From the NCBI GenBank assembly GCA_026388155.1, contig JAPLKI010000013.1, forward strand, positions 1-64,000: a stretch of 64,000 nucleotides of DNA. Reading direction: 5' to 3'. Below, in pieces: positions 26,869 through 63,084 of this stretch (position 1 is its first letter; the number at the start of each line of letters is the position of its first letter). This DNA is from Elusimicrobiota bacterium (lineage in GTDB: Bacteria > Elusimicrobiota > Elusimicrobia > Elusimicrobiales > UBA9959). The position numbers were made by a program, and so were the translations under genes. The notes under the pieces were generated by a model. That model made no database searches, was not told the DNA's origin, and saw nothing but the letters and a program-made list of their open reading frames with translations.

Positions 26869-26910
26869 GCGAATAGCGAGTAGCGAATAGAGAATAGCGG
26901 GTGGCGAATT
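26869..26910 (+). repeat. Heptamer repeat block (6 units of GCGAATA) after permease stop
   Basis: Units GCGAATA, GCGAGTA, GCGAATA, GAGAATA, GCGGGTG, GCGAATT. Together with 26955-26989 it forms two arms of roughly opposite orientation. Confidence 0.9.
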
Positions 26911-26954
26911 AGGGTTTAAAAAAGAAAGACCTTAAAGCAAATCAGAAACTCCGT

Positions 26955-26989
26955 CCCTAACCCCTATACGCTAGCCGCTAACCCCTTTT
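26955..26989 (-). repeat. Opposing heptamer repeat arm
   Basis: Units CCCTAAC, CCCTATA, CGCTAGC, CGCTAAC, CCC...; on the reverse strand they read GTTAGCG/GTTAGGG and can pair partly with 26869-26910. Confidence 0.75.
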
Positions 26990-26994
26990 ATATT

Positions 26995-28842
26995 ATGTTA
27001 CTTATAAGACTTAGCCTTAGAAACCTGCTGCGCCAGAGGCGCCGCAATATTCTGCTTGGCTCCGCCATGGCCATAGGCGTGGCCATACTCGTGACGGCCA
27101 ATTCTTTTTCGCACGGCATATCGGACATAATGTTCAACAAGATAATGCGCTACGTAACCGGGCACGTGGCCGTGCGGTTTAACGAGCGCGGCGGCGTGAT
27201 GCGCGAGATATTCCGCGACAAAGAACGCGTTCTGGCGGCAATAAAGAACGAGCCTCTTATAGAAGAGGCGAATGAATCCATAGGAATGTTCGCGCGCGCC
27301 ATAGGCAACGGACGGTCCGATAATATAATACTGGTGGGCGTGGACACTAAGAAGACCATCAGCAAGACGGCCCTGAAGGAAGTTGAGGAGTCATTCCGTC
27401 TGGTGGAGGGGAACTGGAAGGACGTTGAGGATCTGTCCATAGAAAATCCGGTTATAATTTCGGCCGAGAAAGCCCGTTATCTGAACGTAAAGAGGCGCGA
27501 CGTGGTGCGGGTGCGCTTCCGGAACATGTTCGGGCAGGACCAGGCGGCCAGGCTGACCGTAGTGGGGATAATGAGGAACGACAATATCTTCATGCAGCCG
27601 GTGGTTTTTCTGGAACTGCCCCGCGCAAAAGAACTGCTGGGCTACCGGCCATATGAAACGGGCAGCCTTAGCCTTAAAATAAAAGACCCGCAGAAGAACG
27701 CGTTCGCGCTGGCCGGCCGCATACATGAACGGCTTAAACCCGGCGCCGCTGTAATTTACGCTTCAGTCTCGGGCCGTTCAGGCCGTAAGCCCGTAGCGGT
27801 GTTCGGCTATAAAAGCGACGATGAGGCTAAAAAGAAAATATCGGGGATGCTGAAGCTTTCCGCCGGCAGTTTTGAAAAAGCTTTCAAAAAAGACGGGGTT
27901 ATCGTTCCGGCCGGGCTTGCCAGAACGCTTGGCGTATCCGCCGGGGACGCCATAAACATCCGCTACGACAGGAAGTTCGAAAAAACCCCAAAAGAGGCGT
28001 CTTACAACATAAGCGCGGTCTGCTCCGCCGGCGGATATCCCGGGGAGAACGTGATACTGATGAACGACTCCGGCTTTTACGATCTTTATTATGAAGATAT
28101 GCCCCGCCCTTTTGGCCGCGAAACGGATAATCAGGGAGCTGGACATAAACTTAATGCTGGAGGCAGTGGACCAAAAGAGCGGGGTATGCCCGCGGCGCCC
28201 GGACCGGAAGTTAAGCCGTACTCTTTTCCCCTGGACAGCGCCTGGAGCGGGCTTGTGGCTCCGGAGTGGATACTGCTTAAGCGCACTTACAACACCGACG
28301 AGTACAGGAAAAAATACCAGGAAATAGGCAGGAACAAATGGAAAGGCACCACCATAGACGTGTCCACCATGTACGAAACGGCCAGCGACATACTTAAGCT
28401 CGAATCCGTGCTGAACATCATAACTATTTCCGCGGTGGTGGTTTTGTTCTTCATAATACTGCTGGGCGTGGTGAACACGCTGCGCATGACCATACGCGAG
28501 CGCACCCGCGAAATAGGCACCGTGCGTTCCATAGGCATGCAGCGCGCCGACGTGCGGAACATGTTCATACTGGAGACTTTTTTTCTCACGCTGTTCTCGT
28601 CCATTTCGGGGATAATAATGGGCTTCGCGGCAATGAAGCTTTTGACGCTTATAACTTTTACCGTACAGGACAACCCGCTGGGCATGCTGCTTGTGAACAG
28701 TCATCTGTACTTCCTGCCCACTTTCTCGGGCATTGCCGGCAGCGTGACTTTGATAATGGCCATAGCGGTGGTTACAGCCTGGTTCCCCGCTCACCGCGGC
28801 GCCAACTTGCCGCCCGCGCAGGCTTTAAGGCATTATACATAG
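26995..28842 (+). CDS. ABC transporter permease, FtsX/LolE type (2)
   Basis: 615 residues with the same topology: helix ~18-40, a long periplasmic domain, and C-terminal helices at ~475-500, ~520-550 and ~570-600; the coupling sequence is TIRERTREIGTVRSIGMQR. It is about 110 residues longer than its partner, the extra being in the periplasmic domain, including a Gly/Pro-rich loop near residue 385-400. ATG 26995 is directly preceded by TATATT with no Shine-Dalgarno. It ends nine bases before the LolA-like gene. Confidence 0.88.
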   Translation: MLLIRLSLRNLLRQRRRNILLGSAMAIGVAILVTANSFSHGISDIMFNKIMRYVTGHVAVRFNERGGVMREIFRDKERVLAAIKNEPLIEEANESIGMFARAIGNGRSDNIILVGVDTKKTISKTALKEVEESFRLVEGNWKDVEDLSIENPVIISAEKARYLNVKRRDVVRVRFRNMFGQDQAARLTVVGIMRNDNIFMQPVVFLELPRAKELLGYRPYETGSLSLKIKDPQKNAFALAGRIHERLKPGAAVIYASVSGRSGRKPVAVFGYKSDDEAKKKISGMLKLSAGSFEKAFKKDGVIVPAGLARTLGVSAGDAINIRYDRKFEKTPKEASYNISAVCSAGGYPGENVILMNDSGFYDLYYEDMPRPFGRETDNQGAGHKLNAGGSGPKERGMPAAPGPEVKPYSFPLDSAWSGLVAPEWILLKRTYNTDEYRKKYQEIGRNKWKGTTIDVSTMYETASDILKLESVLNIITISAVVVLFFIILLGVVNTLRMTIRERTREIGTVRSIGMQRADVRNMFILETFFLTLFSSISGIIMGFAAMKLLTLITFTVQDNPLGMLLVNSHLYFLPTFSGIAGSVTLIMAIAVVTAWFPAHRGANLPPAQALRHYT

Positions 28843-28851
28843 GGATATAAC

Positions 28852-29616
28852 ATGGTAAAACTTATTTTAACAGGCCTCTTTATCCTGCTTCCCGCGGCGC
28901 GGCTTTGCGCCGAAAGCCGCGTGACGCCCATCCTCAAGGCCATAGACGCGAATTACAAAATGAAAAAGGATGTCCGCGCCGACGTCACCCTGACCCAGCA
29001 GCGCGCCGGACAGGGCACCAAAATAATCGACATGGCCTACTTCCGCCGCGATTCCGACGACGCTTTTCTTATAGTAATGAACGCCCCCGAGAACGAAAAA
29101 GGCAACGGCTATATCCGCGTGGGCGACAACTTCTGGATGTACCGCAAGAACACCCGCACTTTTCAGCACGTGAACCGCGACGAAAGCATAGGCGGTTCCG
29201 ACGCCCATAGCTCGGATTTCGAAACCCGCAAGCTTGACGAGCTTTACGGCCCCGTGTTCGATTCTTCCGGCACCGAAAAGATCTCGGAGGATATTCTCGG
29301 CAAAGTGCCGGTATATAAATTCGAGCTGAAAGCCAGGGTCAACGATGTTGATTATCCACGCCAGATCTTCTGGACGCGCCGCGACAACAACCTGCTGCTC
29401 AAGCAGGAGGCCTATTCCCTTTCCGGCACGCTGATGCAGACGGCGTATTCCATCAAGTTCACCGAGATAGAGGGGCGCTATGTGCCGGTGAAGCAGTTAT
29501 TCATTGACGAGTTCGAAAAAGGCAACAAGACCATAGTGGAGATAGCTAATATCGTCCCCGGCAAGCTGGACGATAAAATATTCACTAAGGCGTACCTGGA
29601 GAATCTCAGTAAGTAA
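28852..29616 (+). CDS. LolA-like outer-membrane lipoprotein-sorting protein
   Basis: 254 residues with a signal peptide cleaved after ARLCA. The body (MAYFRRDSDDAFLIVMNAPENEKGNGYI split as FLIVMNAPENEKG, DNFWMYRKNTRTFQHV, SDFETRKLDELYGPVF, PRQIFWTRRDNNLLLKQEAYSLSG) is the LolA-like fold of the COG2834/LolA_like group, a hydrophobic half-barrel that carries acyl chains across the periplasm. With two FtsX-type permeases, an ATPase and an outer-membrane barrel around it, it is the likely periplasmic shuttle. Its stop codon is immediately followed by a heptamer repeat. Confidence 0.85.
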   Translation: MVKLILTGLFILLPAARLCAESRVTPILKAIDANYKMKKDVRADVTLTQQRAGQGTKIIDMAYFRRDSDDAFLIVMNAPENEKGNGYIRVGDNFWMYRKNTRTFQHVNRDESIGGSDAHSSDFETRKLDELYGPVFDSSGTEKISEDILGKVPVYKFELKARVNDVDYPRQIFWTRRDNNLLLKQEAYSLSGTLMQTAYSIKFTEIEGRYVPVKQLFIDEFEKGNKTIVEIANIVPGKLDDKIFTKAYLENLSK

Positions 29617-29644
29617 GTCACAGGTCACAAGTTGCAAGTCACAA
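29617..29644 (+). repeat. Heptamer repeat block (4 units of GTCACAR) at stop codon
   Basis: GTCACAG, GTCACAA, GTTGCAA, GTCACAA begin at the base after the TAA stop (29614-29616). Confidence 0.9.
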
Positions 29645-29682
29645 GTTTTGAATACGGATCTCAATATTTTATTTGATAATTT

Positions 29683-30966: not shown

Positions 30967-31162
30967 CCTGAATCCTGCAGTTAATGTTGGTTTCTATAGG
31001 AAAATCAGGTGAACAATAAAATGCAGGATTCCCCGCAGCAACGGGTCGAAAACCAAGCGCAATGCCCCGCACTTTTTCCGAAATGGGCCAAAGTGCGGGG
31101 CGAAGCGCACCTTGAGCTCTGCGAAAGGAAAAGTTGCAACTGCAACTTTTAGGCTAATGAAG
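30965..31162 (+). repeat. Hairpin-rich dispersed repeat, copy A
   Basis: Begins AACCTGAATCCTGCAGTT at the stop codon of the barrel gene and ends AGGCTAATGAAG, containing the addB start codon. It holds CCCCGCACTTT/AAAGTGCGGGG (31068-31100) and AAAAGTTGCA ac TGCAACTTTT (31129-31150). Closely related to 40580-40818. Confidence 0.85.
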
Positions 31163-34021
31163 ATAAATATTATCGGTCCGCGGGAAAATCTGGTTGAAAA
31201 AGCCGGGGGAATTTTACTGGCAGATAAGTCATTGGCTGATAATATAGTGGTCTTTCCGGGCAAACGTCCCGCCCACTTCCTTCGCAAATACCTGGCGGAT
31301 AAGCTCGGGGCCGCTTTTGAGCCGCCTGTTATATTTTCCATGGACGGGTTTATAGACCACCTGGCGGAACTGGCGCAAATAAAAGGCACGGAACTATCCA
31401 ATCTTGACGCCGTGGGCATCCTTTACGACAATATGCTGGGCGACCTGGCCGGCATTATAGGGAAAACCGGCAACCTTTCTCTGGATACCTTCCTGCCCTG
31501 GGGATTTAAGATATTTTCGGATTTTGAAGAGCTTAAGATCGAGCTCAAAACTCCCAAGGAGCTTAAAGACTTCGATTCCATTCTGCCAGGTGAAATAAAA
31601 GGGTCGGATTCATTTATTAAAAAATTGAAAAGCTTCTCCGGAGTGTATGAACAGTTTTACACCCGGCTTGAAAAAGAAAAACTGCTTACACGGTCGCTTA
31701 AATACGCCAAAACCGCCGAAAAAATACAGGAGACCGGCCTGGGAAATAAAAAAATAATCCTGGCCGGCTTTTTCGCCCTGACCGCGTCGGAAAAGAAAAT
31801 CTTCAAGGCCCTCGCCAGGCTCCCCGATTCCATTCTCCTGCTGCAGGAAGGACCGGGCCTAAAAGAACAGTTCACTTTTCTTGAGAGTTCTCTTCAAGCC
31901 TACCAGCCTACAAGCTCACCAGCCTGCCAGCCTGCTTTACACTTCTATAAAGCGCCGGATTTGCACGGGGAAGTGTTTAAACTTGCGAATATTTTAAAAG
32001 GCCAAACCCTCACTTCAAAAGATGTGGTGGTTCTGCCATCTTCGGACGCGCTGTTTCCCGTGCTTTTCAATGTGTTGGGGGAAGTTAGGGACTATAACAT
32101 CTCTATGGGGTATCCCGTAACCGCCACGCCGGTCTATTCGCTTATAGACTCTTTGGGCGATTTGCTTGAAAAACGCTCAGGGGACCAATACTTCGCCCCT
32201 AATTACCTTAAATTCGTTTTTCATCCGTACGTTAAGAACATATACTTCCAAGTCACAGGTCACAAGTCACAGGTCACAAGTGAGAGGGAACAGGACACAG
32301 GTGACAGGTCACAGGTAACAGGTAACAGATCAAGCGAACCGACGCGTATTATTTTTCAGACCATAGAGACGGAACTGGCCTCCAAAATAAACAAATACCT
32401 GACCCTTGAAGATATTGAAACCGACACCGCCCTGCTTGCACAATGCGCCGACCTGCTTAAAAACTACGCCGACGCCCAACTGACCGTTAAAGAGATACAG
32501 GCGCATATTAAAAACATCCACAAAAACCTAATCCGCCCCTTTGAAAAACTTGAGAGCATCAAAGACTTCGCGGATAAACTTATAGCTGTGGTCTCCTTCA
32601 TCTCGGAGCACAGCACCGCGAACCTTCACCCCTATTCCGCGCCGTTCATAGAAAAACTCTACGAAGACCTGCACGCCTTCTCAAACTCCGCGCTTTCCGG
32701 CCGCGGCCTTGAAAATATTTCCTCCTACTTCAAATTGCTCAAGTCCTATATTAAAGGTTCCGCCTATCCGTTCCCCGGCACTCCGCTCTCCGGCCTGCAG
32801 GTGCTGGGGGCGCTTGAAACCCGCGGCCTTAAATTTGACCGCGTCTATTTCCTGGACGCGAACGCCGACATACTGCCCGGCTCAAAAAAAGAAGACACCA
32901 TCCTTTCGCACTTTATCCGCCGGGGCCTCGGCCTGCCCACCTACAAAACGCGCGAGTCGGTGGCAAAATATTACTTTAATGTGCTTATCTCCCAGGCCGA
33001 AGAAGCCCACATTTTCTACAAAGACGCGCCCGATATCGAAAAAAGCCCGTTCGTTCAGAAACTTATCTGGGACCTTGAAGTGGCGGGGCAAAAACCCAAA
33101 GAAGAAGAGGTGCATTTCCGACTTAACTTCACACAGCAGGAGCCGCCGCCAGTGGCCAAAGCCGAAGATGTCCTGGCGTACCTCAAAAATTTCACCTTTT
33201 CGCCGTCAAGCCTGGACGCGTATCTTGCCTGCGGCTTAAAATTCTATTACCAGTATGTGCTTCGCGTAAAAGAAAAAGACGAAGTGGAAGACGAAATCGG
33301 GCAGGCTGAAATTGGCGGCATAGTGCATGGGATACTGGAGCGCTTATTCAGGGAACACAAACAAGGTGAAGAGTTAAAGCTCACCCGTGCGACCGAAATA
33401 GCCGAAGAGATATTTGACGCCGGGCTTAAAAATCATGACTCCGGTTACGAATACCTTATAAAAAAACAGATATTGCGCCGCCTGCGCGATATCCTGCTTT
33501 ATCATAAGGAAAATGCGGGCAAAGCGCAGATAAAAAGCTGCGAAAAGATTTTCGATATTACCCTGGACGGAGTTAAGTTCACCGGCCGGGCCGACCGCAT
33601 AGACCTGCGCCCGGATGAAAAGGGCCGCAATGCCCATATCATAGTGGATTATAAAACCGGTTCCACGGCCAAAACGCCCAACCTAAAAAAATTTGATATT
33701 GAAGACCGCCAATCTTGGCCTAAAACCCTGAAATCCGTGCAATTGCCGCTTTATGTAATGTTCTACCTGGCCGAAAACCCGTATGTCGCGCTTGAAGCCG
33801 TGGACGCCTGCCTTATGATGCTGGGCTCTCATAAGATAACCGAAGAATTTCTGTTCGCCAAGAGCGAAGATAAGGCCGCGGACCTGGCCAAACTGCAAAA
33901 GGCCGTTTCTTACCTGGTTTATGAAATCAAGTCCCCGGAGCTGAATTTTGAACCCGCCTCCGATATAAAAACCTGCGAGCTTTGCCCCTTCAAAATAATG
34001 TGCGGCCGCCAATGGGCGTGA
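31157..34021 (+). CDS. addB: AddB-like PD-(D/E)XK nuclease
   Basis: 954 residues, ATG 31157. The N-terminal ~650 residues are an inactivated UvrD-like helicase scaffold (VVFPGKRPAHFLRKYL; LETRGLKFDRVYFLDAN), and the C-terminus is a RecB-type nuclease with GGIVHGILERLF, DRIDLRPDEKG and IIVDYKTGS. Cysteines YLACGLKF (~residue 693) and CELCPFKIMC (end) match the AddB iron-sulfur staple. Partner of the AddA-like protein for processing double-strand breaks, although the genes are 19 kb apart. Two repeat blocks are read in frame (31899-31935 and 32252-32328). The start region lies in dispersed repeat A. Confidence 0.85.
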   Translation: MKINIIGPRENLVEKAGGILLADKSLADNIVVFPGKRPAHFLRKYLADKLGAAFEPPVIFSMDGFIDHLAELAQIKGTELSNLDAVGILYDNMLGDLAGIIGKTGNLSLDTFLPWGFKIFSDFEELKIELKTPKELKDFDSILPGEIKGSDSFIKKLKSFSGVYEQFYTRLEKEKLLTRSLKYAKTAEKIQETGLGNKKIILAGFFALTASEKKIFKALARLPDSILLLQEGPGLKEQFTFLESSLQAYQPTSSPACQPALHFYKAPDLHGEVFKLANILKGQTLTSKDVVVLPSSDALFPVLFNVLGEVRDYNISMGYPVTATPVYSLIDSLGDLLEKRSGDQYFAPNYLKFVFHPYVKNIYFQVTGHKSQVTSEREQDTGDRSQVTGNRSSEPTRIIFQTIETELASKINKYLTLEDIETDTALLAQCADLLKNYADAQLTVKEIQAHIKNIHKNLIRPFEKLESIKDFADKLIAVVSFISEHSTANLHPYSAPFIEKLYEDLHAFSNSALSGRGLENISSYFKLLKSYIKGSAYPFPGTPLSGLQVLGALETRGLKFDRVYFLDANADILPGSKKEDTILSHFIRRGLGLPTYKTRESVAKYYFNVLISQAEEAHIFYKDAPDIEKSPFVQKLIWDLEVAGQKPKEEEVHFRLNFTQQEPPPVAKAEDVLAYLKNFTFSPSSLDAYLACGLKFYYQYVLRVKEKDEVEDEIGQAEIGGIVHGILERLFREHKQGEELKLTRATEIAEEIFDAGLKNHDSGYEYLIKKQILRRLRDILLYHKENAGKAQIKSCEKIFDITLDGVKFTGRADRIDLRPDEKGRNAHIIVDYKTGSTAKTPNLKKFDIEDRQSWPKTLKSVQLPLYVMFYLAENPYVALEAVDACLMMLGSHKITEEFLFAKSEDKAADLAKLQKAVSYLVYEIKSPELNFEPASDIKTCELCPFKIMCGRQWA
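31899..31935 (+). repeat. Octamer repeat block inside addB (CCTACCAG units)
   Basis: Units CCTACCAG, CCTACAAG, CTCACCAG, CCTGCCAG, CCTGC, period 8, encoding AYQPTSSPACQPA in frame. Confidence 0.85.
32252..32328 (+). repeat. Heptamer repeat block inside addB (11 units of GTCACAR)
   Basis: Eleven consecutive 7-nt units from GTCACAG to GTAACAG. Three units make 21 nt, so the protein shows a 7-residue repeat: QVTGHKS, QVTSERE, QDTGDRS, QVTGNRS. Confidence 0.95.
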
Positions 34022-34027
34022 ACGGCA

Positions 34028-34062
34028 GGGGCTAGGGGCTAGCGGATAGGGAATAGGGCGAG
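34028..34062 (+). repeat. Heptamer repeat block (GGGGCTA units) after addB stop
   Basis: GGGGCTA, GGGGCTA, GCGGATA, GGGAATA, GGGCGAG, beginning six bases after the stop codon. Confidence 0.85.
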
Positions 34063-34123
34063 GAGACGGATTTTCGCGTTCCAAAATGGTATATTGTTTT
34101 CCGCAGACTTTAAGGGGAAAACC

Positions 34124-34591: not shown

Positions 34592-34601
34592 GCGCGCCGG
34601 A

Positions 34602-40503: not shown

Positions 40504-40579
40504 GGAACTCTTGTGAATTTCAGGCATTGCTCCCTTTCGCTATTATAGCCTTAGGAACTTTGTCCTGTCCAGCTGACAT

Positions 40580-40818
40580 AACCTGAATCCTGCAGTTCAA
40601 GGTTATTCTCATTTGAAAATATAAGGAACAAAAATATGCAATGCCTTCGCAGGTGCCGTAACAAAGGCCTATGGCCATCAGACGGCCAGGATTCCCCGCT
40701 TTGCGGGTCGCAAATCAAGCGCATTGCGCGCAGAATTTGCGAGGGTGTATACCGCGCGAAGCGCACCTGAGCACCGCGAAGGGAAAGTTTCAACTGAAAC
40801 TTTCAGGATAATGGAAGT
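40580..40818 (+). repeat. Hairpin-rich dispersed repeat, copy B
   Basis: Same ends as copy A (AACCTGAATCCTGCAGTT ... AGGATAATGGAAG) and same stem positions: CCCCGC ttt GCGGG near 40692, CGCGC/GCGCG near 40726, GAAAGTTTCA ac TGAAACTTTC (40783-40804). It also carries GGTGCCGTAACAA and ATCAGACGGCC, both shared with the MITE-like element. No gene follows on this strand. Confidence 0.85.
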
Positions 40819-43325: not shown

Positions 43326-44504
43326 ATGGAAAAACCTACAGTAAAAACCAAGTGCCCTAATTTTTCTTCGGGCCCCTGCGCCAAAAGGCCGGGCTGGACC
43401 GTGGATGCCTTAAAGAACGCGCTTGTCGGCCGTTCTCACCGCTCTAAAGAGGGTAAGGCCCGGCTGAACGAAGTTTCAGAGCGCATGAAAAGAGTGCTCG
43501 GCCTGCCGGCGGATTACCGCATAGGCGTGGTGGCCGGGTCCGATACCGGCGCCGTTGAACTTGCGATGTGGACCCTGCTCGGGCCCCGCCCCGTGGACAT
43601 ATTCGGCTGGGAGTCTTTCGGAAAAGGCTGGATAACCGACGCGGTAAAGCAGCTTAAACTGCCGAAAATTAACGAGTACAAGGCCGATTACGGCAAACTG
43701 CCGGACCTTTCCAAAGCTAATCCCGCCAACGACATAATATTCACCTGGAACGGTACCACTTCAGGAGTTAAAGTGCCGAACCTCAACTGGATATCCTCAG
43801 ACAGGGAAGGCCTCACCATCTGTGACGCCACTTCCGGCATATTCGCCATGGAAATGGATTACTCGAAGCTGGATGTGATAACTTTCTCCTGGCAGAAAGT
43901 GATAGGCGGCGAAGCCGCGCACGGAGTTGTCATCCTTTCGCCGAGAGCCGTCAAACGGATGGAAGAGAACGAGCCGAAAGTCTCATGGCCTTTACCCAAA
44001 CTGTTCAGGCTGGCCGCCGAGGGCAAGCTGAAACCGGGAGAACTTGAGTATAACACGGTAAACACCCCTTCAATGCTTTGCGTGGAAGACGCCATAGACG
44101 CGCTTAAATGGGCGGAATCAATAGGGGGAATGAAAGCCCTGATCGCACGCTCAAACGCCAACCTGAAAGCTCTTGAAAAATGGGTGGAACAATCCGACTG
44201 GATAGATTTCCTGGCCGAAACCAGGGAGACCCGCTCCAACACTTCCGTCTGTTTCAAAATTATAGCGGACTGGTTCCAGAAGCTGGGCGACGAAGACAGG
44301 ACCAAGGCCGCCAAGAAGATAACCTCAATGCTTGATAAAGAAGGCGTGGCTTACGACATCAATTCTTACGGCAAGGCCCCGGCCGGCATCCGCATATGGT
44401 GCGGCGCCACCGTGGAGTCTTCCGATGTGGAAGCCCTTACCCATTGGCTGGACTGGGCTTACGAAGAAGTGGCCAAAGAATATTCAAAGGAGACCGTAAA
44501 ATGA
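43326..44504 (+). CDS. serC: Phosphoserine aminotransferase
   Basis: 392 residues. [43 protein letters not shown] and the PLP-lysine motif [15 protein letters not shown] fit the alphaproteobacterial/archaeal-type SerC rather than the E. coli type. It converts 3-phosphohydroxypyruvate and glutamate to phosphoserine in serine synthesis. AAAGGA lies before ATG 43326. The last bases overlap serA by four (ATGA), so both enzymes are made together. Confidence 0.93.
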
Positions 44505-45451
44505 AAAAAGTTTTAATTGCCGACAAGGCGGATGCTATCTGTGAAAAAACGCTTAGGGAAAGAGGGCTGGAGCCGGTGGTAAAACCCGGCATGAAGCCTG
44601 AAGAACTTAAAGCCTGCATAGCCGAGTTTGACGCTATAATAGTGCGTTCCGCCACCACCCTTACCTGTGACCTTATAGAGGCCGCCACAAAACTTAAAGC
44701 CGTGGCCCGCGCGGGTTCCGGCGTGGACAATATAGATGTTCCGTCCTGTGTTTCCAAAAAGGTGCTGGTAATGAACACGCCTTTCGGCAACACCGTTTCC
44801 ACCGCCGAACACGCCATAGCCATGATGATGGCGCTGGCCCGCCATATACCCCAGGCCAACGCTTCCACCCACGCCGGCAAGTGGGAGAAAAAGAAATTTG
44901 AGGGAGTGGAGCTCACCGGCAAAACTCTGGGAGTGGTCGGCTGCGGCAACGTGGGCGCCGTGGTGGCTGACAGGGCCATGGGCCTGAAGATGAAAGTGCT
45001 GGTTTACGATCCCGTAATGACGGCGGAAAGGGCCAGGGAACTGGGCGTTCACATGGTCAGCCTTGACGAACTTTACCAGAAGTCGGACTTCATCACCTAT
45101 CATGTCGTGATAAATCCCGCCACCAAGGGGATGATAAACAAGGATGCCATAGCCAAGATGAAGAAAGGCGTGCGACTGATAAACTGCGCCCGCGGCGGCA
45201 TTATGGTCGAAGCCGACATAAAAGCGGCCCTTGAGAGCAAACAAATAGCCGGGCTTGCCTGCGATGTTTACGTCAAAGAGCCGGCGACCGAGCATATCTT
45301 TTTCGGCATGGAAAATGTGATAGCCACGCCGCACATAGCCGCTTCCACGAAGGACGCGCAGGTTACGGTGGCGCGCCAGGCGGCCGAGCAGATAGCGGAC
45401 TACCTGCTTAACGGCACTAAGACCCACGCGATAAACGGAGATAAAGTATAG
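44501..45451 (+). CDS. serA: D-3-phosphoglycerate dehydrogenase, short form
   Basis: 316 residues: [17 protein letters not shown] at the start, [38 protein letters not shown] (NAD binding), [17 protein letters not shown] (Arg), and [14 protein letters not shown] (His). It oxidises 3-phosphoglycerate, the first step of serine synthesis. There is no ACT domain, so no serine feedback of the E. coli kind is expected. ATG 44501 is preceded by AAGGAG and overlaps the serC stop. The stop codon TAG is itself the first bases of a heptamer repeat. Confidence 0.93.
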
Positions 45452-45534
45452 CGAATAGCAAAGAAGCGAATAGCGAATAGTAAATAAGGAAGTTCCTTAC
45501 ACCCTATTCGCTATTTGCTAATCGCTATTCGCTG
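45451..45534. repeat. Inverted pair of GCGAATA heptamer arrays forming a long hairpin
   Basis: Left arm GCGAATA..GCGAATAGCGAATAG (45451-45490) and right arm CCTTACACCCTATTCGC..CTATTCGCT (45494-45534) are nearly complementary, with a loop of about five bases. It fills the gap between serA and the DUF1015 gene. Confidence 0.9.
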
Positions 45535-45542
45535 ACAATTAT

Positions 45543-49023: not shown

Positions 49024-49893
49024 ATGAAAAAGTTTGGCAAAAGCGCATTTGTGCTGGCGGTAACGCTGGTGTCTTATGCGGGTTTCGTTTCAGCGCAAGT
49101 AGTTTCCTTTGATACCGCCGGCGGCAATGCCGGTGATCTCAAAGCATTAGTGGATAACATGAAATTTGGCGGTGGCCCCGGCGGTCACGGCGGCCCCGGC
49201 GATCACAATGGCCCCGGTCCCCAGCCCGGCCCTGGCGGTCATGGCGATCACAATGGCCCTGGCCCGCAGCCCGGTCCGTGGCATCCGCAGCCCGGTCCTC
49301 AGCCTGGCCCATGGAATCCGCAGCCCGGCCCGCATCCTGATCCGTGGCATCCCGGTCCCCAGCCCGGCCCGTGGCATCCTGGTCCTCAGCCCGGCCCATG
49401 GCATCCCGGTCCTCAGCCCGACCCATGGCATCCCGGCCCTCAGCCCGGTCCATGGCATCCGCAACCCGGTCCCCAGCCTGGTCCGTGGCATCCCGGCCCC
49501 CAGCCCGGCCAATGGCATCCGCATCACAATGGTCATCCCGACTGGGACCATAATGACTGGAACCACAATGGCTGGCAGCACCCGGATCCCGCCTACAATG
49601 ACTGGTGGAACAATTACAACGCGTGGTGGGCGAATTACAATCATCCTTACTCACAGTTCCATACCGTCTGCACAGTAATCCCCGGCTCTTCGGCCAAAGG
49701 CTTTATAATAGATCAAACCATGCCGTTCAACGGCACGGCGAGCTTCTATTATTATGACGCCTTTGAGAATATGGTCGCCGTCAGCAACCCGGTGAACGGC
49801 GTCTATCGCGGCGGTGACGGAACCCCCGTGTTCGACTTCTACAATATTCCGTCCCAGGCTGATCACTGTTTCTTCTCGGTGGTCCAGCATTAA
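49024..49893 (+). CDS. Secreted Pro/Gly/His/Trp-rich repeat protein
   Basis: 289 residues with GGAGGGT before ATG 49024 and a signal peptide ending VSAQ. Mature N-terminus VVSFDTAGGNAGDLKALVD, then residues ~50-170 consist of 7-9-residue repeats of the form PQPGPWHPG, giving many His and Trp. A His/Asn/Trp-rich stretch (WDHNDWNHNGWQHPD) follows, then a ~90-residue globular C-terminal domain with two Cys (VCTVIPGSSAKGF ... DHCFFSVVQH). The repeats may bind metal ions or carbohydrate, or form an extended surface fibre; none of this is shown. Related to the gene at 50779 by its N-terminus and repeats. Confidence 0.75.
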   Translation: MKKFGKSAFVLAVTLVSYAGFVSAQVVSFDTAGGNAGDLKALVDNMKFGGGPGGHGGPGDHNGPGPQPGPGGHGDHNGPGPQPGPWHPQPGPQPGPWNPQPGPHPDPWHPGPQPGPWHPGPQPGPWHPGPQPDPWHPGPQPGPWHPQPGPQPGPWHPGPQPGQWHPHHNGHPDWDHNDWNHNGWQHPDPAYNDWWNNYNAWWANYNHPYSQFHTVCTVIPGSSAKGFIIDQTMPFNGTASFYYYDAFENMVAVSNPVNGVYRGGDGTPVFDFYNIPSQADHCFFSVVQH

Positions 49894-52138: not shown

Positions 52139-52990
52139 ATGGCCAGATTCTTTGACGCGCATAATCACATACAGAACTATGCCGGTCCGGTAGAAGATGC
52201 GGCAGCCCTGCTCAAAGCCGACGCCGCGGGCGTGGAACTTATGCTCTGCAACAGCACTTCACCTTTGGACTGGCAAAAAGTTATGGGGCTTGCCGTCGCG
52301 TATAAAAGCATTGTGCCCTGTTTCGGCCTGCACCCCTGGTTTATCAGGGAAGACGAGCCTGGCTGGCTCCATAACCTTGAGAGTTTTTTGCTGCACCACG
52401 CGTCTTCCTGCGTGGGGGAAATAGGTTTGGACGCCGCGAAAAGGGTCGAAGAGGATGAAGAGGTCGAAGAGGCCGAAGAGCCCAATATCACCTTGCAGGA
52501 GGGGGTTTTTGCGGCCCAACTGAGATTGGCCAAAATGCTGCAGCGGCCGGCCTGTGTGCATTGTGTGAAGGCCTGGGGCAGGATGATGAAAATAATAAGA
52601 ACGGAGCGGCCCGGCGCTTTCATGTTCCATTCCTACGGCGGTCCGGCCGAAATGGTGGAAGAGTTCGCCGCATTGGGCGCTTATTTTTCCTTCAGTGCCT
52701 CCATAATGAATCCGAGAAGGGAAAAGTTGCGGGAGGCGCTTCGGGCCGTGCCTCCCGAACGCCTGTTGTTTGAGACCGACGCGCCAAAGTCAGACATTAC
52801 GGGCCTGCGCTTAGACCTCTGGGGCCTGCCCCAGGTCGTTTCCGCCGCCGCGGTGATATTGGACCGGTCCGGGGAAAGTCTCGCAGAACTTTCCTGGGCC
52901 AACGGAATTAAATTTTTAGGGAATATCACCCCGGAAATTTTCAGGGAATATCGCCCCGGTACGAAAATAAAAAAATTCCGCCGCCCCTGA
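52139..52990 (+). CDS. TatD-family metal-dependent hydrolase
   Basis: 283 residues: FFDAHNHIQNYAG (metal HxH), CFGLHPWF, VGEIGLDA, RPACVHCVKAWG, FHSYGG and LLFETDAPKSD, all TatD metal-site motifs. TatD proteins are DNA exonucleases or D-aminoacyl-tRNA deacylases. An acidic insert, RVEEDEEVEEAEEPN, follows GLDAAK and comes from a near-repetitive GAAGAG-rich stretch. The start seems leaderless. A heptamer repeat begins directly after the stop codon. Confidence 0.87.
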   Translation: MARFFDAHNHIQNYAGPVEDAAALLKADAAGVELMLCNSTSPLDWQKVMGLAVAYKSIVPCFGLHPWFIREDEPGWLHNLESFLLHHASSCVGEIGLDAAKRVEEDEEVEEAEEPNITLQEGVFAAQLRLAKMLQRPACVHCVKAWGRMMKIIRTERPGAFMFHSYGGPAEMVEEFAALGAYFSFSASIMNPRREKLREALRAVPPERLLFETDAPKSDITGLRLDLWGLPQVVSAAAVILDRSGESLAELSWANGIKFLGNITPEIFREYRPGTKIKKFRRP

Positions 52991-53018
52991 TCGCTATTTG
53001 CCATTCGCTATTCGCTTC
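52991..53018 (-). repeat. Heptamer repeat block (TCGCTAT units) at the tatD stop
   Basis: TCGCTAT, TTGCCAT, TCGCTAT, TCGCTTC, beginning at the base after the TGA stop; the reverse complement of the GCGAATA family. Confidence 0.85.
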
Positions 53019-53025
53019 TTTTACT

Positions 53026-53784
53026 ATGCCCGAAGACAGGCTGGCGCGCATACGATTAATGGTGGGAGGAGCAGGCGTTGAACGCCTGAAAGCCTCTTTT
53101 GTCGTGGTGGCCGGGCTTGGCGCGGTGGGCAGTTATGCCGTGGAGGGTCTGGCCAGGGTGGGCGTTGGCCGCCTGCGGCTGGTGGACTTTGATATCATAA
53201 AAGCCAGCAATATTAACCGCCAGCTTTACGCTCTGGGCTCGACCATCGGCAAGCATAAGGCCGATATAGCCGCCGCCCGGGTGCTTGACATTAATCCTGA
53301 TTGCCGCGTGGAGCCGCTCAAAATTTTCGCCGCAGCCGAGAGTTTTGGCGCCATACTTGCGGACGCCCCTGACATGGTGATAGACGCCATAGACGCCATG
53401 GGCCCTAAAACCGAGCTTATAGCGGAAACACAAAAAAGAGGGCTGCGGCTTATCTCCTGTATGGGCGCGGCCCTGCGCACCGACCCTTCCGCCATCCGCG
53501 TAGGTCCTTTCTCCGAAGCTCGCGGCTGCCCGCTTGCGACCCGGCTCCGGTACTGGCTCAGGAAAAAGAACTCTCCCGCGCAGTTCACCTGTGTTTACTC
53601 CACTGAGCCTTTGGGCCGGCTGCGTCTGGACGCCCGTCAGGCCGCCGGGGCTGAAAAAGATTACTACGACCGCGGCCGCCAGCGGGCCGCTTTGGGCAGT
53701 CTGCCCACCGTTACGGGTATTTTCGGCCTTACTATAGCCAATACCGTCATACAAACGCTGCTTTCCGGAACAAAACCGAGATAA
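53026..53784 (+). CDS. tcdA: tRNA threonylcarbamoyladenosine dehydratase
   Basis: 252 residues of the ThiF/MoeB/E1-like fold: VVVAGLGAVGSYAVEGLARVG (ATP binding), LVDFDIIKASNINRQLYAL (with the Arg of the NRQ motif), DAIDAMGPKTELI and a late GCPLATRLRYWLRK, which place it with TcdA (CsdL/YgdL). It cyclises t6A37 of tRNA to ct6A with ATP. The gene follows tatD by 35 bp. ATG 53026 has no clear Shine-Dalgarno. Confidence 0.88.
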   Translation: MPEDRLARIRLMVGGAGVERLKASFVVVAGLGAVGSYAVEGLARVGVGRLRLVDFDIIKASNINRQLYALGSTIGKHKADIAAARVLDINPDCRVEPLKIFAAAESFGAILADAPDMVIDAIDAMGPKTELIAETQKRGLRLISCMGAALRTDPSAIRVGPFSEARGCPLATRLRYWLRKKNSPAQFTCVYSTEPLGRLRLDARQAAGAEKDYYDRGRQRAALGSLPTVTGIFGLTIANTVIQTLLSGTKPR

Positions 53785-53798
53785 ACCTTCAATTGCTG

Positions 53799-53884
53799 GT
53801 CGCAGGCAACAGGTTACGGTGAAACACATCGTTTAAGGATCTTACCTTAAGCTGCTTGTAACCTGTGCTCTTGTGACTTGTGAC
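53799..53884. repeat. Inverted pair of GTCACAR-type heptamer arrays
   Basis: Left GTCGCAG, GCAACAG, GTTACGG (53799-53819) and right CTTGTAACCTGTGCTCTTGTGACTTGTGAC-type units (53855-53884) oppose each other, starting 15 bases after the tcdA stop. Confidence 0.8.
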
Positions 53885-53908
53885 GGGCGGCTTTGCCGCT
53901 CTTCCCCC

Positions 53909-55453: not shown

Positions 55454-55461
55454 GGTTTTTT

Positions 55462-57348: not shown

Positions 57349-57358
57349 GGATCGCTAT

Positions 57359-57928: not shown

Positions 57929-57950
57929 AAAAAGCAATTTCCCAACTTGA

Positions 57951-57979
57951 GATCCCCGGCCGGGCGGCCGGGGATTTTT
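57951..57979. terminator. Bidirectional terminator
   Basis: ATCCCCGGCC gggc GGCCGGGGAT followed by TTTT, between convergent genes. Confidence 0.9.
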
Positions 57980-57980
57980 A

Positions 57981-58862
57981 TTACCGGAGCTTCTTCGCCT
58001 TCAGATAGTCTATGAGATCGCCGGGGTAATCGGTAATTATGCCGTCTACGCCCCAGCTTATGGCGTTCTCTATATCTTTTTTATCGTTCAAGGTCCACGG
58101 CACCACCTGTATGCCGTTCTTGTGCAGATACTCCACCACATCTTTGTTTATCCACTTGAACTCCGGGCTGATAATGTCAGCCTGCGAACTTTTGGCGACC
58201 GCGACCAGGTCAACAAGCGTCGCTTCTATAAGCTGGGCTATCTTTATTTTAGGTTCCAGCTTTTTAGCCTCAACGAGCGTGCGCCAGTCAAACGATTGGA
58301 GTATGACGCGGTCCGTCAGACCGTATTTTTTGACCATGTCAACGAAGAGCTTCGCGAAGACCGCGGGAGGGGGTGACAGCTCAGGCTCCCCCGGAACGAG
58401 CTTGGTTTCTATGTTGAACCTTACCCTGGCCGCTGCCGGCTCGGTGGAAGCCAGAACCATCTGGAAAACTTCTTCCAGCGTGGGGATCCTTTCACCGGGG
58501 CTGGGCGCCTGGGCGGGGAATCTGGGGTTTTGCAGGGTGCCGCAGTCGTATTTTTTCACTTCCTCAAGGGTAAGCGAAATTATCGGAGCCGGGCTTGCCA
58601 GTTTCTTGCCGTCGGGGCCCAGACAGATATCCGGAATTATGGACTTTTCATGCGAAATGACTATAACCCCGTCTTTAGTCACGTTCATGTCCATCTCAAG
58701 CACGTCCACGCCTAAGCGCAGGGCTTCCCTGAAGGCGGACAGTGTGTTTTCGGGGCGCGTGCCGCGCGTTCCCCGGTGCCCGTGAACTTCTATCAATTTA
58801 GTCCCCTGCGACGCCAGTATACCCGGCGTCAGCAACAGGGCCGTAAAAATAATTTTTTTCAT
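57981..58862 (-). CDS. glpQ: Periplasmic glycerophosphodiester phosphodiesterase
   Basis: 293 residues with a signal peptide (ALLLTPGILAS). The GDPD motifs are clear: EVHGHRGTRGTRPENTLSAF (His/Arg/Glu), VLEMDMNVTKDGVIVISHE (Glu, Asp, His), FNIETKL, ILQSFDWRTL and VVPWTLNDKKDI, WGVDGIITDYPG. It hydrolyses glycerophosphodiesters to glycerol 3-phosphate and alcohol. The upstream neighbour (same strand) is a GlpT-type transporter that could import the product. Confidence 0.92.
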   Translation of the reverse strand: MKKIIFTALLLTPGILASQGTKLIEVHGHRGTRGTRPENTLSAFREALRLGVDVLEMDMNVTKDGVIVISHEKSIIPDICLGPDGKKLASPAPIISLTLEEVKKYDCGTLQNPRFPAQAPSPGERIPTLEEVFQMVLASTEPAAARVRFNIETKLVPGEPELSPPPAVFAKLFVDMVKKYGLTDRVILQSFDWRTLVEAKKLEPKIKIAQLIEATLVDLVAVAKSSQADIISPEFKWINKDVVEYLHKNGIQVVPWTLNDKKDIENAISWGVDGIITDYPGDLIDYLKAKKLR

Positions 58863-58893
58863 TTGTCCTCCAAAATAAACAAGGAACTCCTCC

Positions 58894-58921
58894 CCTAGTC
58901 GCTATTCGCTATTTGCTTCCC
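58894..58921 (-). repeat. Heptamer repeat forming the 3' end of the transporter gene
   Basis: CCTAGTC, GCTATTC, GCTATTT, GCTTCCC on the plus strand; on the reverse strand it encodes the last residues GKQIANSD and the stop codon. Confidence 0.85.
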
Positions 58922-60283
58922 CTGATGATGCACTTTCCAGGTCATGCCCATTAAAATTATGGACATGACGCAGGCGGCTAGCACCAGCTTAAAGCCGCCG
59001 TCCCAGCCCCAGCGGTCCACCACCCGGCCTATGCCCAGTTCCGCTATAACCGCTCCGCCCACATAGCCGAAAAAGCCGGTAAACCCGGCCGCCGTACCAG
59101 CGGCTTTCTTCGGCACAAGGTCCACCGCGCTTACCCCTATCAGCATGACCGGCCCGTAAACAAGGAAACCTATCAAGAACAATGTTACGGAGTCTATCAG
59201 AAAATGTCCGGCCGGATTTTTCCAGTAGATGTAAACCGCCGCCATTACCAGCGCCATGTATATCACGGAGATAGGTCCGCGGCGGCCTCCGAAGAACCTG
59301 TCGGAGGCCCAGCCGGCAAGCAGCGTGCCTGGAATGCCGGCGAATTCGTAGATAAAAAACTGCCAGCGCGCCAGACCCGCCGGGCATTGTTTAACGGCGC
59401 TTAAATAAGTGGGCGCCCAGTTCAGCACGCCGTAGCGCACCACATAAACGAACACATTGGCCACGGCTATAAGCCAGAGCATTTTATTGTTCAAAACATA
59501 TTTAACAAGTATTTCTTTGGCGCCCATTTCGCGCTCAGGGTCGGCCACGCCGGTATCGGGGTAATCGTTTTTGTATTCCTCGATGGGTGGCAGGCCCACG
59601 GATTGAGGCGTGTCGCGCAGAAAGATGAAGATCATAAGGCCGAGGGCTATTGAAATTGCTGCGGGAACATAGAAAATGACAAAAAAAGGCAGTTTCGCGC
59701 CATACGAGCCGCCCACGGCGAATAGGGCGGTCAGTATCAGCACGCCGTTTATTATGGGACCGGCGCTGCCGCCGCCCACATTGTGAGCCGTGTTCCATAT
59801 GGCGAACCGGGTGCCGCGCTCTGAGTCCGAGAACCAGTGGGTGAGCGTGCGTGCGCACGGGGCCCAACCCATCCCCTGCGCCCAGCCGTTCGCGAACCAC
59901 AATACGGCCATGGCCCAAAGGGCGGAGGCGAAGCCCGGGAATATGAGGTTTATAAGGCCGGAAAGTATAAGGCCGGTGCCCATGAAGTAGCGGGGGTTGG
60001 AACGGTCGGAAACATTGCCCATTACGAATTTGCTTATACCGTAAGCCACGGAAAGGCCGGTGGCTATAAGCCCCACATCCCCCTTGCTGAAACCGTAATT
60101 GTTTATAAGATAAGGTTTTGCGAGCGAAAAATTGTTGCGCACCAGATAAAAGCCCGCGTAGCCCCAGAAGATGGATAGCATTACCCGGAAGCGCATGGCC
60201 TTATATTTAGGGTCGATCTGTTCTTTTGGGACGCGCTCAATGTGGGCCGCCGGTTTGTAGACGGATAGAAGTTTGTTCAGCAT
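58895..60283 (-). CDS. glpT: OPA-family MFS transporter, GlpT-like
   Basis: 462 residues, twelve transmembrane helices. SIFWGYAGFYLVRNNFSLAKPYL, KFVMGNVSDRSNPRYFMG, WAQGMGWAPCARTLTHWFS and the RGTRFAIWNTAHNVGGGSAGP loop are those of the organophosphate:phosphate antiporters (GlpT/UhpT/PgtP). Glycerol 3-phosphate is the most likely substrate because a glycerophosphodiesterase follows 32 bp downstream. Hexose phosphate cannot be excluded. The C-terminal tail is a heptamer repeat. Confidence 0.85.
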   Translation of the reverse strand: MLNKLLSVYKPAAHIERVPKEQIDPKYKAMRFRVMLSIFWGYAGFYLVRNNFSLAKPYLINNYGFSKGDVGLIATGLSVAYGISKFVMGNVSDRSNPRYFMGTGLILSGLINLIFPGFASALWAMAVLWFANGWAQGMGWAPCARTLTHWFSDSERGTRFAIWNTAHNVGGGSAGPIINGVLILTALFAVGGSYGAKLPFFVIFYVPAAISIALGLMIFIFLRDTPQSVGLPPIEEYKNDYPDTGVADPEREMGAKEILVKYVLNNKMLWLIAVANVFVYVVRYGVLNWAPTYLSAVKQCPAGLARWQFFIYEFAGIPGTLLAGWASDRFFGGRRGPISVIYMALVMAAVYIYWKNPAGHFLIDSVTLFLIGFLVYGPVMLIGVSAVDLVPKKAAGTAAGFTGFFGYVGGAVIAELGIGRVVDRWGWDGGFKLVLAACVMSIILMGMTWKVHHQGKQIANSD

Positions 60284-60291
60284 GAGGTTTC

Positions 60292-61554: not shown

Positions 61555-61702
61555 TTTTCCTCCTGTGTGTCAGATAAAATAATAATATTAATAAAGTCAA
61601 AGGTAAAGGGGAAGATACAGGGTGTCTTTTTCTACGACACCGTTGAATAGAGGTGCAACTTTATATTACTATGTTGTAACTGTGTAATGTGCTCAACTAT
61701 GT
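61555..61702. other. Divergent intergenic region
   Basis: About 150 bp between the permease and the surface-protein gene. AT-rich promoter-like words (TATATTACTATG near 61663) occur; no Shine-Dalgarno is visible before ATG 61703. Confidence 0.4.
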
Positions 61703-63037
61703 ATGCGCAACTGTGATTTAAAAAAATATTTATTATTTGCCGTTCTTGCTTTCTGGTGCGCCGGCCCGGCGGCCGCGTCGCTTACGTCCGGCGACAAGGA
61801 ACTTGTCCGGCTGACGAAAGACTCTCCCTCCGCGCTGACATCCGGCGATAAATCCCTGTTTATCTCCAACGAGCCGACGCTTGCCGCGGAACTCTCCTCC
61901 GGCACGGCTAAAACGGCGAAGATCGGGTTTTACAGCGGCCTGGCGAAAGAGCAGTGGGCGTGGCTGGCTCCAGAATTTGACGCGTGGCGGTATAAAGGTC
62001 AGTTAATAGGCATTTCTACGGGTATGCCCGCGCCGTTGCTGTTCAACTAGGCTATCTCGCCTGATACCCTGTCCGAGCTGCACGTTTCCCGAATAAGCGA
62101 CCGCACCGGGCAAAACCCGAACGAAAATGTTGCGTTTTCAACGACCTCTTTTGACTGGATAAACAACCGGCTGGATATCCTGCCGTCCACCGGTTCCTGG
62201 GAGTATAACTCAATATACAGCGTAATTCTGGGTACGGGCGTGTTGAGCGAAGACGGCGTTCCGGTGAATTCGCTTGATTTTAATTTTGAGACCCAGTTCA
62301 AATACGACCAGGGCAATGTGGTCAGGCCGATACAGGGCAACGACACCTCGGTTGAGATAGTGCAGAACGTGTTTTCGAAGGACGGCTACATCAGGGTGGA
62401 CACCGCCCCGGTCTACGCGCTTTTGGCCTCGGCCAACTCGGATTTTCAAAGCGAGTATTCAGGCGGCCAGACCGGAAGCCCCACCGAGATAGACTATTGC
62501 AACAACACCAGTTCCCCTGATAAGTGCATCCCGGAGACCATTGTGTTTCCCTACGGCACAATGCTTATAACGCTGCCGTATAACCCGGCCGTTATCACGA
62601 ACCCGAGAATTTATGTATTAAACGAGACCACGGCCAAATGGGAGCCGCTGCCCACTGCCGAAAAGACCGCTAACACCATATCGGCATATGCCCCGCATTT
62701 CAGTTTCTTTGTGGTTGGCGGGGCGGTAATAACAAGCCTGAGCCAGGCGAAGGTATATCCGTCGCCATTCCGTCCGAACGGCCCGAACGCAGGCACAGGC
62801 GCCGGTAAAACCGGCACCGACGCGGGCGGTATAACGTTCGTGGTCCCGAACGGGAGCAGTGTTAAGATCTATACCGCGCGAGGGGAGCTTGTAGCCGAAG
62901 CCTCAAACCCGTCCGGCGGCTCAATAAACTGGGATACGCGCACCAAGAGCGGCAACAAAGCGGCCAGCGGCGTGTATCTATATATTATAAACAGCCCGGT
63001 GGGCAGGCAGACCGGTAAGCTGGCGATAATCAGGTAA
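61703..63037 (+). pseudogene. Secreted Ig-like/FlgD-like surface protein interrupted by an in-frame amber codon
   Basis: From ATG 61703 the frame gives a signal peptide (YLLFAVLAFWCAGPAAA) and 115 residues to TAG 62048-62050, after LLFN; the same frame then continues without gap (AISPDTLSELHVSRI...) to TAA 63037. The segment around the stop is an SbsA-like Ig domain in which FN-x-AISPDTLS expects Gln, Lys or Glu, each one base from TAG. Later come a ZU5-like region and the C-terminal KVYPSPFRPNG ... SGVYLYIINS sorting-type domain like that of the 614-4837 protein. It precedes a PorV-family gene. Sequence error, fresh mutation or readthrough are all possible. Confidence 0.8.
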
Positions 63038-63049
63038 GGGAACAGGGAG

Positions 63050-63084
63050 GGTAACCGGTAATCAGTGGCCGGTAACCGGTGGAA
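63050..63084 (+). repeat. Heptamer repeat block (GGTAACC units) after surface-protein stop
   Basis: GGTAACC, GGTAATC, AGTGGCC, GGTAACC, GGTGGAA, starting 12 bases after the stop codon. Confidence 0.85.

Follow-up and report, generated by a model that had tools for sequence, protein, structure and literature searches.

Heptameric repeats in described genomes and in the window

Filamentous cyanobacteria carry the STRR repeats, intergenic heptamers with several units per genome, and the first-pass annotation of the DNA studied here had likened its repeats to them. This DNA, called the window in the following, is the whole analysed stretch of 64,000 nucleotides, positions 1 to 64000 of contig C13 (JAPLKI010000013.1) in the 3,364,920-base genome of an Elusimicrobiota bacterium (GCA_026388155.1; G000 among the genomes compared), and it contains intergenic arrays of degenerate 7-nt units. 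The observation that such period-7 arrays stand behind stop codons was confirmed. Judged by description and not by sequence, the likeness to STRR is apt in kind, both being intergenic heptamers with several units per genome, though the closest precedent found is another one, the GGGAATC repeat of Xanthomonas. STRR repeats are not known to show proximity to stops, inverted arms or a core.

Rehm et al. (2015; PMC4692102) described GGGAATC heptamers, degenerate to GGGANTN with positions 1–4 and 6 conserved, which lie on the sense strand less than 50 bp from the stop codon and in antisense near the next start codon, some of them overlapping the stop. X. campestris has 186 of these repeats, in 70 cases as inverted pairs; their length varies between species, and few stand between divergent genes (PMC4692102). 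Our arrays share with them the period of 7, the mainly intergenic position between aligned genes, the strand rule and the inverted pairs. Indeed, near stops the sense strand is purine-rich in 51 of our arrays, pyrimidine-rich in 8 and even in 4; within 30 nt of a start codon it is pyrimidine-rich in 39, purine-rich in 9 and even in 1; and divergent regions hold only 0.48 arrays/kb compared with 1.63/kb between co-directional genes. As this layout has been published for one unit, the layout itself was already known, and we withdraw degenerate unit columns as a novelty because GGGANTN had been reported by Rehm et al. In comparison, each Xanthomonas genome has a single G-rich unit, interpreted as a quadruplex, while about ten units occur here, the commonest of them without G-tracts; a conserved core or the replacement of heptamers is not reported in the text of that article examined, and both are present here. 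New here are many units in one genome with one layout, a conserved core, the reuse of one junction, or slot, by different heptamers, and the same layout in Hyphomicrobiales. In the open literature searched, neither many heptamers with one layout, nor a conserved core, nor heptamer replacement at the same junction was found.

Three Calothrix heptanucleotides are mentioned in the same article (PMC4692102). The TAACTGA direct repeats of the Beggiatoaceae are dispersed intergenic heptamers with a patchy spread across phyla and an unexplained origin; they differ from our arrays in having one fixed unit, placed mostly just upstream of start codons, and related heptamers are seldom or never repeated in that genome (PMC4679880). 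For GATAGRA of Chloroflexus aurantiacus, a dispersed heptamer-derived satellite family, transposition was considered possible by the authors, stop codons do not figure in the main text, and inverted arms do not figure in the portions examined (PMC6749651). Geobacter metallireducens has 49 dispersed elements of four tandem GGACCGG heptamers, within and between genes, again with one unit and, in the portions of the article examined, with neither a stop link nor inverted arms described (PMC2700814). The REPs of E. coli resemble the present elements as intercistronic palindromes that lie in part near stops, 446 of 4,072 within 15 nt (PMC12306157), but REPs as described in the text consulted, 20–40 bp long with a GTAG or CGTC tag, come without heptameric arms (PMC3733652).

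Heptameric repeats have previously been noted motif by motif, with slippage, regulation and transposition all being proposed. Many heptamers in one layout, together with different heptamers per slot in sister species, separate the period from the sequence, and such a genome offers natural replicates for testing slippage against copying and selection. An effect of the elements on the coupling of adjacent genes, if there is one, would involve 114 of 443 intergenic regions between co-directional genes in our genome sample.

We give about even chances to the reading that these are REP/MITE-like insertions with heptameric, slippage-prone arms, persisting just past stop codons between co-directional genes. 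They would be non-autonomous, mostly palindromic elements of about 60–170 bp, their arms consisting of about three to five heptamers with four to five fixed and two to three variable columns per unit. Copied, probably by transposition, into co-directional gene junctions, they would survive where they are least harmful, between the upstream stop and the next ribosome-binding site, so that the arrays would appear to begin at stop codons. Purifying selection rather than targeting would then set their position, and whichever factor copies the arms or binds to them would maintain the fixed columns. After insertion, heptamers would be gained and lost by slippage, and a single junction could come to carry different elements in different species.

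Period, units and position of the arrays

Arrays were detected by local scoring of bases identical to the base 7 positions on, with a threshold of 9 and other lags as controls. The genome sample comprised 41 stretches with 864,000 bases (864 kb, 26% of the genome) and 659 genes, which were called with a home-made codon-model caller and no standard tool. Its noncoding DNA contained 160 lag-7 arrays and its coding DNA 31, while the noncoding controls gave 0–6 segments at lags 4–6 and 9–13, 23 at lag 8 and 94 at lag 14, the harmonic. Period 8 is a minor second noncoding peak (23 segments vs. 160), with 9 segments against 20 for period 7 in the relative G001 and 26 against 49 in G002. In the noncoding DNA of the window, six segments scored at least 9 at lag 7 and none at lags 4–6 and 8–13. 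Of the eight period-7 blocks listed in the first-pass annotation, six pass this stringent lag-7 test, and those at 53799 and 63050 are weak. Genome-wide, GCGAATAGCGAATAGCG, the GCGAATA pattern, occurs with up to three mismatches at 445 places compared with 54 for the reversed pattern, and GTCACARGTCACARGTCAC, the GTCACAR pattern, at 86 compared with 4.

The 142 co-directional arrays have length quartiles of 25, 30 and 33 nt, the longest measuring 89 nt. Clustering the unit consensus sequences of the 158 intergenic arrays at one mismatch gives 28 groups, led by AGCGAAT (47), GCCATAA (26), AGGGGCT (12), GTCACAA (9) and AATCTTA (8). Variation within the unit is concentrated in few columns: 80 of the 100 arrays of at least 28 nt have four or five invariant columns, with a mean of 4.12 compared with 3.49 for randomly dealt mismatches (77 arrays above the random expectation, 19 below). 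Quadruplexes were considered and rejected, as the two commonest units, AGCGAAT and GCCATAA, have no G-tracts; AGGGGCT (12/158) has one.

The 158 intergenic arrays are distributed unevenly with respect to gene orientation, 142 lying in 87.3 kb between co-directional genes (1.63/kb), 8 in 15.9 kb between convergent genes (0.50/kb) and 8 between divergent genes (0.48/kb). Among regions of 40–400 nt, an array is present in 102 of 314 co-directional ones, in 5 of 39 convergent ones (Fisher p 0.0099 vs. co-directional) and in 4 of 50 divergent ones (p 0.0002).

Within 15 nt of a stop codon lie 63 of the 142 co-directional arrays, against 33.4 expected when arrays are placed in their own intergenic regions and 14.6 when they are placed over all co-directional intergenic regions. 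With the window excluded, the count is 58 of 136 against 31.1 expected, a number reached by none of 5000 placements (maximum 47). The tight tie to gene ends that had been claimed from the window hence held when tested on 26% of the genome against random placement. The repeat had also been said to overlap the stop codon in two cases, which is true for 45451 and 58894, the unit itself containing TAG. As evidence for targeting, such overlap is partly an artefact, because a unit that contains TAG terminates the frame by itself; indeed, 15 co-directional arrays of the sample overlap a called stop, and each of them has a stop codon within its own sequence. In view of this possible artefact of units such as TAGCGAA, the main test was repeated without the arrays overlapping stops (15) or starts (2), and 48 of the remaining 125 lay within 15 nt of the stop compared with 25.1 expected (0/5000). 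The link was reproduced in the sister genome G002 (17 of 44 arrays within 15 nt, expected 11.2, p 0.026) and was not seen in G001 (4 of 15, expected 4.4, p 0.69).

Copies, inverted arms and junctions in relatives

Near-identical copies dispersed at unrelated loci, as known for MITEs, were observed. The intergenic regions L155:14848 and L195:10062 have a common element with 94% identity over 120 nt between unrelated flanks, which were checked for this pair only, and the L195 copy has two heptamers more than the L155 copy; in this case, sequence was therefore copied between loci and the unit number changed. More generally, 39 of 129 array-bearing intergenic regions in a sample of 29% of the genome have a partner with at least 80% identity over at least 60 nt.

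Many inverted pairs of arrays enclose a palindromic core, AAGGARYTCCTT. Of 96 co-directional regions with arrays, 34 contain it with up to two mismatches, compared with 0–5 for five control palindromes; of 193 array-free regions 17 do, compared with 1–6. Among 45 noncoding core matches with at most one mismatch, 30 stand with YAGNGNN units (family 1), 12–13 with GCCNTAN (family 2) and 2 with neither. Family 1 has an asymmetric frame, TTTAGGG-core-ATTTC, and its asymmetric core AAGGAGTTCCTT is found 16 times in one orientation to the genes and 14 times in the other; in its left arm information is high at AG.G each seven bases and lower between. Exact cores number 78 in G000, 44 in G001, 39 in G002, 53 in G004 and 45 in G015, with 1–4 for the reversed control, compared with 0–12 in the other 36 genomes searched (reversed control 0–7 overall). 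The GCGAATA pattern is similarly confined, with 253 matches in G000, 43 in G001, 84 in G002, 17 in G004 and 36 in G015, compared with 0–8 in the other 56 genomes searched, except for G051 (15 in one array). A higher-order tandem array at L192 2545–3069 has a long unit that contains GCGAATA and GGGGCTA heptamers and TGGAAAACTATCAAGGCGG.

The family 1 arms keep a fixed phase to the conserved core, and variation is confined to few columns, both of which speak against the rather unlikely view that these are ordinary heptameric microsatellites, grown by replication slippage in untranslated DNA, with palindromes and shared units as by-products. Slippage could explain why copy number varies at orthologous sites of Hyphomicrobiales-like loci among the matches listed (5–11 units in 12 loci at one site, 5–14 in 5 loci at another) and why L020 has about 10 perfect units, and heptameric simple sequence repeats are over-represented in many bacteria, for which slippage was proposed (PMC4692102). 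By itself, however, it would not produce an inverted partner; convergent and divergent regions are array-poor, and the copy pair has non-repeat sequence in common.

Inverted partners with at least 14 of 18 matches were found in 53 of 103 regions, compared with 20 of 98 when pairing was done with another array-bearing region. Co-directional regions with arrays have a median fold z of −2.98 (n = 96), those without −1.11 (n = 193), while convergent regions without arrays (−3.58, n = 33) fold more strongly than the array-bearing co-directional ones. A possible though doubtful alternative is that the arrays are mRNA elements under selection, whose hairpins behind the stop, between co-transcribed genes, stall or release ribosomes, shield the upstream transcript from 3' exonucleases or couple translation by drawing stop and start close to each other. 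The folding, with z −9.1 at site D of the window, is consistent with this, and so are the proximity to stops above chance, the co-directional preference and the 51:8 sense-strand bias; moreover, arrays that overlap a stop or lie no more than 15 nt from it have stop codons in a mean of 2.25 frames in sense compared with 1.19 on the other strand, and ribosome stalling is reported for E. coli REPs at this distance from a stop (PMC12306157). Yet the arms show no covariation, about half of the intergenic regions are without a partner arm above threshold, some arrays lie within genes, and at the same junction in relatives the heptamer and the hairpin differ or are absent. Strict hairpin covariation, examined by swapping arms between elements, was unsupported and rejected.

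The insertion reading draws on the same junctions in relatives; within the window, the comparison covered 8800–25344 by anchors only. G023 and G034 represent g4, an outgroup genus in the family to which the genome of the window belongs, and have few arrays (3 in 146,758 bases). Their comparison left out junctions with a gap under −30 or over 600 nt, with called genes of less than 200 nt or with anchors ending more than 60 nt away. The gap at array-bearing junctions is at most 20 nt in 8 of the 9 comparisons with these two genomes, made at 5 distinct junctions. Empty sites in relatives, as for MITEs, were thus observed in these 8 of 9 comparisons and in 3 of 26 with nearer relatives, the direction of change probably being from an ancestral tight junction to a filled one. 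At junctions of at most 20 nt any insert necessarily comes to lie near the stop, and the "targeted expansion" that the first-pass annotation had suggested was not demonstrated.

In 68 comparisons with congeners at 52 junctions, arrays were present on both sides in 11 cases, in our genome alone in 12, in the relative alone in 11 and on neither side in 34. The units in the 11 shared slots are alike (distance of at most 2) in 5 and different in 6, with random pairs of our own arrays being alike at a rate of 0.29. The reuse of a slot is illustrated by L190:13053, where our genome and G001 have related TAGGG-type elements (TAGGGGC and TAGGGTA) and G002 has a GGTAACC-type one, each of them placed after the stop and ahead of a GGAGG site; in G023 and G034 this junction measures 20 nt and GGAGG is present.

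Several observations weigh against the insertion reading. A transposase to go with the elements was not found, Y1 transposases being the only kind sought, and no target-site duplications were seen in listings inspected by eye only. The Y1 (RAYT-type) gene at L186, read with both flanks, is flanked by a different hairpin, and Rehm et al. generally found no mobile-element association of their repeats (PMC4692102). Repeat partners also occur for array-free intergenic regions (36 of 333 in the 29% sample), and junctions without arrays on either side are likewise at most 20 nt long in G023/G034 in 10 of 18 cases. In the nearer relatives, our array junctions are seldom tight (G001 3/11, G002 0/12, G015 0/3), because they hold other sequence there, and array sharing between congeners at the same junction is only borderline (Fisher p 0.061). 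Complementarity is no higher for two arms of the same element than for arms drawn from different ones (p 0.10 for family 1; p 0.95 for family 2, n = 13 including the misassigned row L014:9728, which was dropped from the profile, n = 12). Many arrays, such as sites B and C of the window, are single-armed, which a palindromic element does not predict. Finally, all arrays taken together are depleted near starts (23 within 15 nt vs. 33.3 expected, p 0.015), but this depletion is lost without the overlapping arrays (21 vs. 25.1, p 0.20), which weakens the account of a selection filter.

Mobilisation as REPs by RAYTs was rejected, since the flanks of the Y1 genes seen carry other sequence. The RAYT-type Y1 transposase gene of L186 (1430–2120) is flanked by an AAAGGTAGCGTCTACCTTT hairpin, judged by eye to be unlike those of the arrays, and the RAYT genes of L187–L189 have no heptamer array within 220 nt on either side.

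Arrays in other phyla and individual sites of the window

The exact 24-base GCGAATA pattern was found in at least 116 stretches; many of the titled ones belong to Mesorhizobium and other Hyphomicrobiales, and the AAGGARYTCCTT core is near the pattern in 1 of 116 among the matches listed. From 80 titled loci among these matches, 42 Hyphomicrobiales loci were picked by title, one of them titled only "Bacterium M00.F...", with some of that order (L045, L061) left out; 36 loci are untitled, some of which (L104, L108, L114) were used in the orthologous-site comparison given above. The counts for Hyphomicrobiales and Gemmatimonadales loci in this and the next paragraph refer to the matches listed. 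In the 42 loci, 34 arrays (score 12) are convergent, 29 co-directional and none divergent. Within 15 nt of a stop lie 14 of the 29 co-directional arrays compared with 6.0 expected (p 0.002), all 14 being purine-rich in sense. At score 10, 14 of 21 array-bearing convergent regions have two arrays; 15 of the 21 left arrays are purine-rich, as are all 14 right arrays when read in the sense of their own gene, so arrays tend to stand behind the stop of the gene to which they belong. In the nine Gemmatimonadales loci, 5 of 12 arrays are near stops (p 0.10), and the orientation is opposite (0/5).

A role in 3' end formation had been suggested from the window, and the many convergent and absent divergent arrays of the Hyphomicrobiales still allow this idea, the more so as 8 of the 21 array-bearing convergent regions have a central run of T4 or A4 and the arrays of L050 and L058 surround an apparent terminator hairpin, as judged by eye. 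For the genome of the window it fits poorly: per kb, convergent regions hold a third as many arrays as co-directional ones, and none of the eight window sites is listed among terminator-like patterns (a G+C-rich hairpin and a T run). Transcription terminators or their flanks are therefore a highly improbable explanation overall and were rejected for this genome. It is conceivable, though quite unlikely in our view, that one class of stop-codon-seeking hairpin elements spans unrelated bacteria with the 7-nt step as sole invariant, an enzyme or binding protein reading or writing heptads with four to five fixed and two to three free positions and exchanging the heptamer at a junction without altering where it sits or which way it points; Xanthomonas GGGANTN would then be a member.

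In the window, the left arm of site D, made of purine-rich GCGAATA units (45448–45486, +), leaves the TAG stop of gene 44501–45451, with a partial stretch at 45448–45462 (score 5.5) crossing the stop (45449–45451), followed by 45465–45486 (score 10.0). The apex (45486–45499, +), with the palindromic core AAGGAAGTTCCTTA, is self-pairing in the fold, and the right arm of inverted, pyrimidine-rich GCGAATA units (45504–45533, −; score 13.0) ends 9 nt ahead of the next start codon at 45543. Both arms form a near-perfect hairpin in the fold of 45452–45542 (z −9.1, 0/200 shuffles). The gene's stop is TAG in G001, G002, G023 and G034 and TAA in G015.

Site A consists of a purine-rich AGCGAAT/TAGCGAR arm at 26868–26897 (+; lag-7 score 15.5), which starts 9 nt past the stop of an FtsX-like gene (25345–26859, the stop ending at 26859), and of a pyrimidine-rich counterpart at 26955–26985; the fold of 26860–26994 is a weak hairpin (z −1.9). 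Of the 10 relatives compared, 8 have stop and start 1–7 nt apart at this junction; inverted GAGTTAT arrays occupy it in G001 and AAGGATG arrays in G015. In both of the latter (L170, L174), the palindrome CGTCCGCCTNAGGCGGACGG lies between the stop and the differing heptamer arrays, as if retained while the heptamers were exchanged.

Sites B and C have a single arm each. The GTCACAR array of site B (29617–29646, +; score 10.5) stands immediately 3' of a LolA-like gene (28852–29616, stop ending at 29616), with no hairpin in the fold of 29617–29682 (z +0.6); the gap is −1 in G023 and −11 in G034, G001 has another hairpin and G015 a GTCACAR-like array. At site C, a GGGGCTA/TAGSGRN array (34027–34058, +; score 15.0) follows the stop of an AddB-like gene (31157–34021, stop ending at 34021), again with no hairpin in the fold (34022–34123, z −1.0), and the orthologous junction was not found among the relatives compared.

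An array of inverted, pyrimidine-rich GCGAATA units at 52993–53016 (−; score 9.5) sits in the 35-nt junction between a TatD-like gene (52139–52990, stop ending at 52990) and a ThiF-like gene (53026–53784); here G002 has CTTTACT-type heptamers and G001 an unrelated insert of 241 nt. 3' of the ThiF-like gene, 53799–53884 (+) is one hairpin (fold of 53785–53886, z −4.5) with a degenerate GTCACAR-like left arm (53799–53819), which gives no segment even at score 5, and an inverted right arm (53855–53884), which contains 53870–53884 with score 8. The minus-strand GCGAATA array at 58895–58917 (−; score 11.0) includes the TAG stop of an MFS gene on that strand (58895–60283) and was scored as coding, outside the six noncoding segments, because it contains the gene's stop; next to it, GAGGAGTTCCTT at 58881–58892 on the minus strand matches the core with one mismatch. 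The weak GGTAACC repeat at 63050–63080 (+), past the stop of gene 62240–63037, gives score-5 pieces only, and Tandem Repeats Finder (TRF) reports period 7 with 66% matches or period 14 with 85%. Rfam models at gathering score gave no match in the window or in L033, L052, L058 and L190.

Three arrays within genes were absent from the earlier list. A GTCACAR array of about 11 units at 32249–32328 (+; score 33) codes for an in-frame linker in the AddB-like gene; at this place the linker of G002 is coded by GAGTCGA-type heptamers and the insert of G001 is longer, the frame being kept in each case. Two more GTCACAR arrays, at 10850–10886 (+; score 15.0) and 11768–11799 (+; score 17.5), lie in an AddA-like (UvrD/PD-DEXK) gene (8929–12210) and leave the frame open. 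The AddA-like and AddB-like names rest on domain matches, the AddB N-terminal model scoring below its cut-off. Apart from the stop-overlapping array at 58895, all three in-gene arrays of the window with a score of at least 9 are in these AddAB-like nuclease-helicase subunits.

Other repeats also occur in the window. An insert of about 81 nt at 28105–28185, within gene 26995–28842, has palindromic ends, CCCCGCCCTTTTGG ... CCAAAAGAGCGGGG, is missing in the relatives aligned there and resembles stretches at G000:C22:70589, G002:C21:98415 and G002:C32:17610; it perhaps represents a separate family of palindromic elements entering genes. A dispersed repeat at 40579–40812 has many matches in G001 and G002, and TRF detected a non-heptameric tandem repeat of about 27 nt at 49261–49523, within a possible reading frame (49024–49893).

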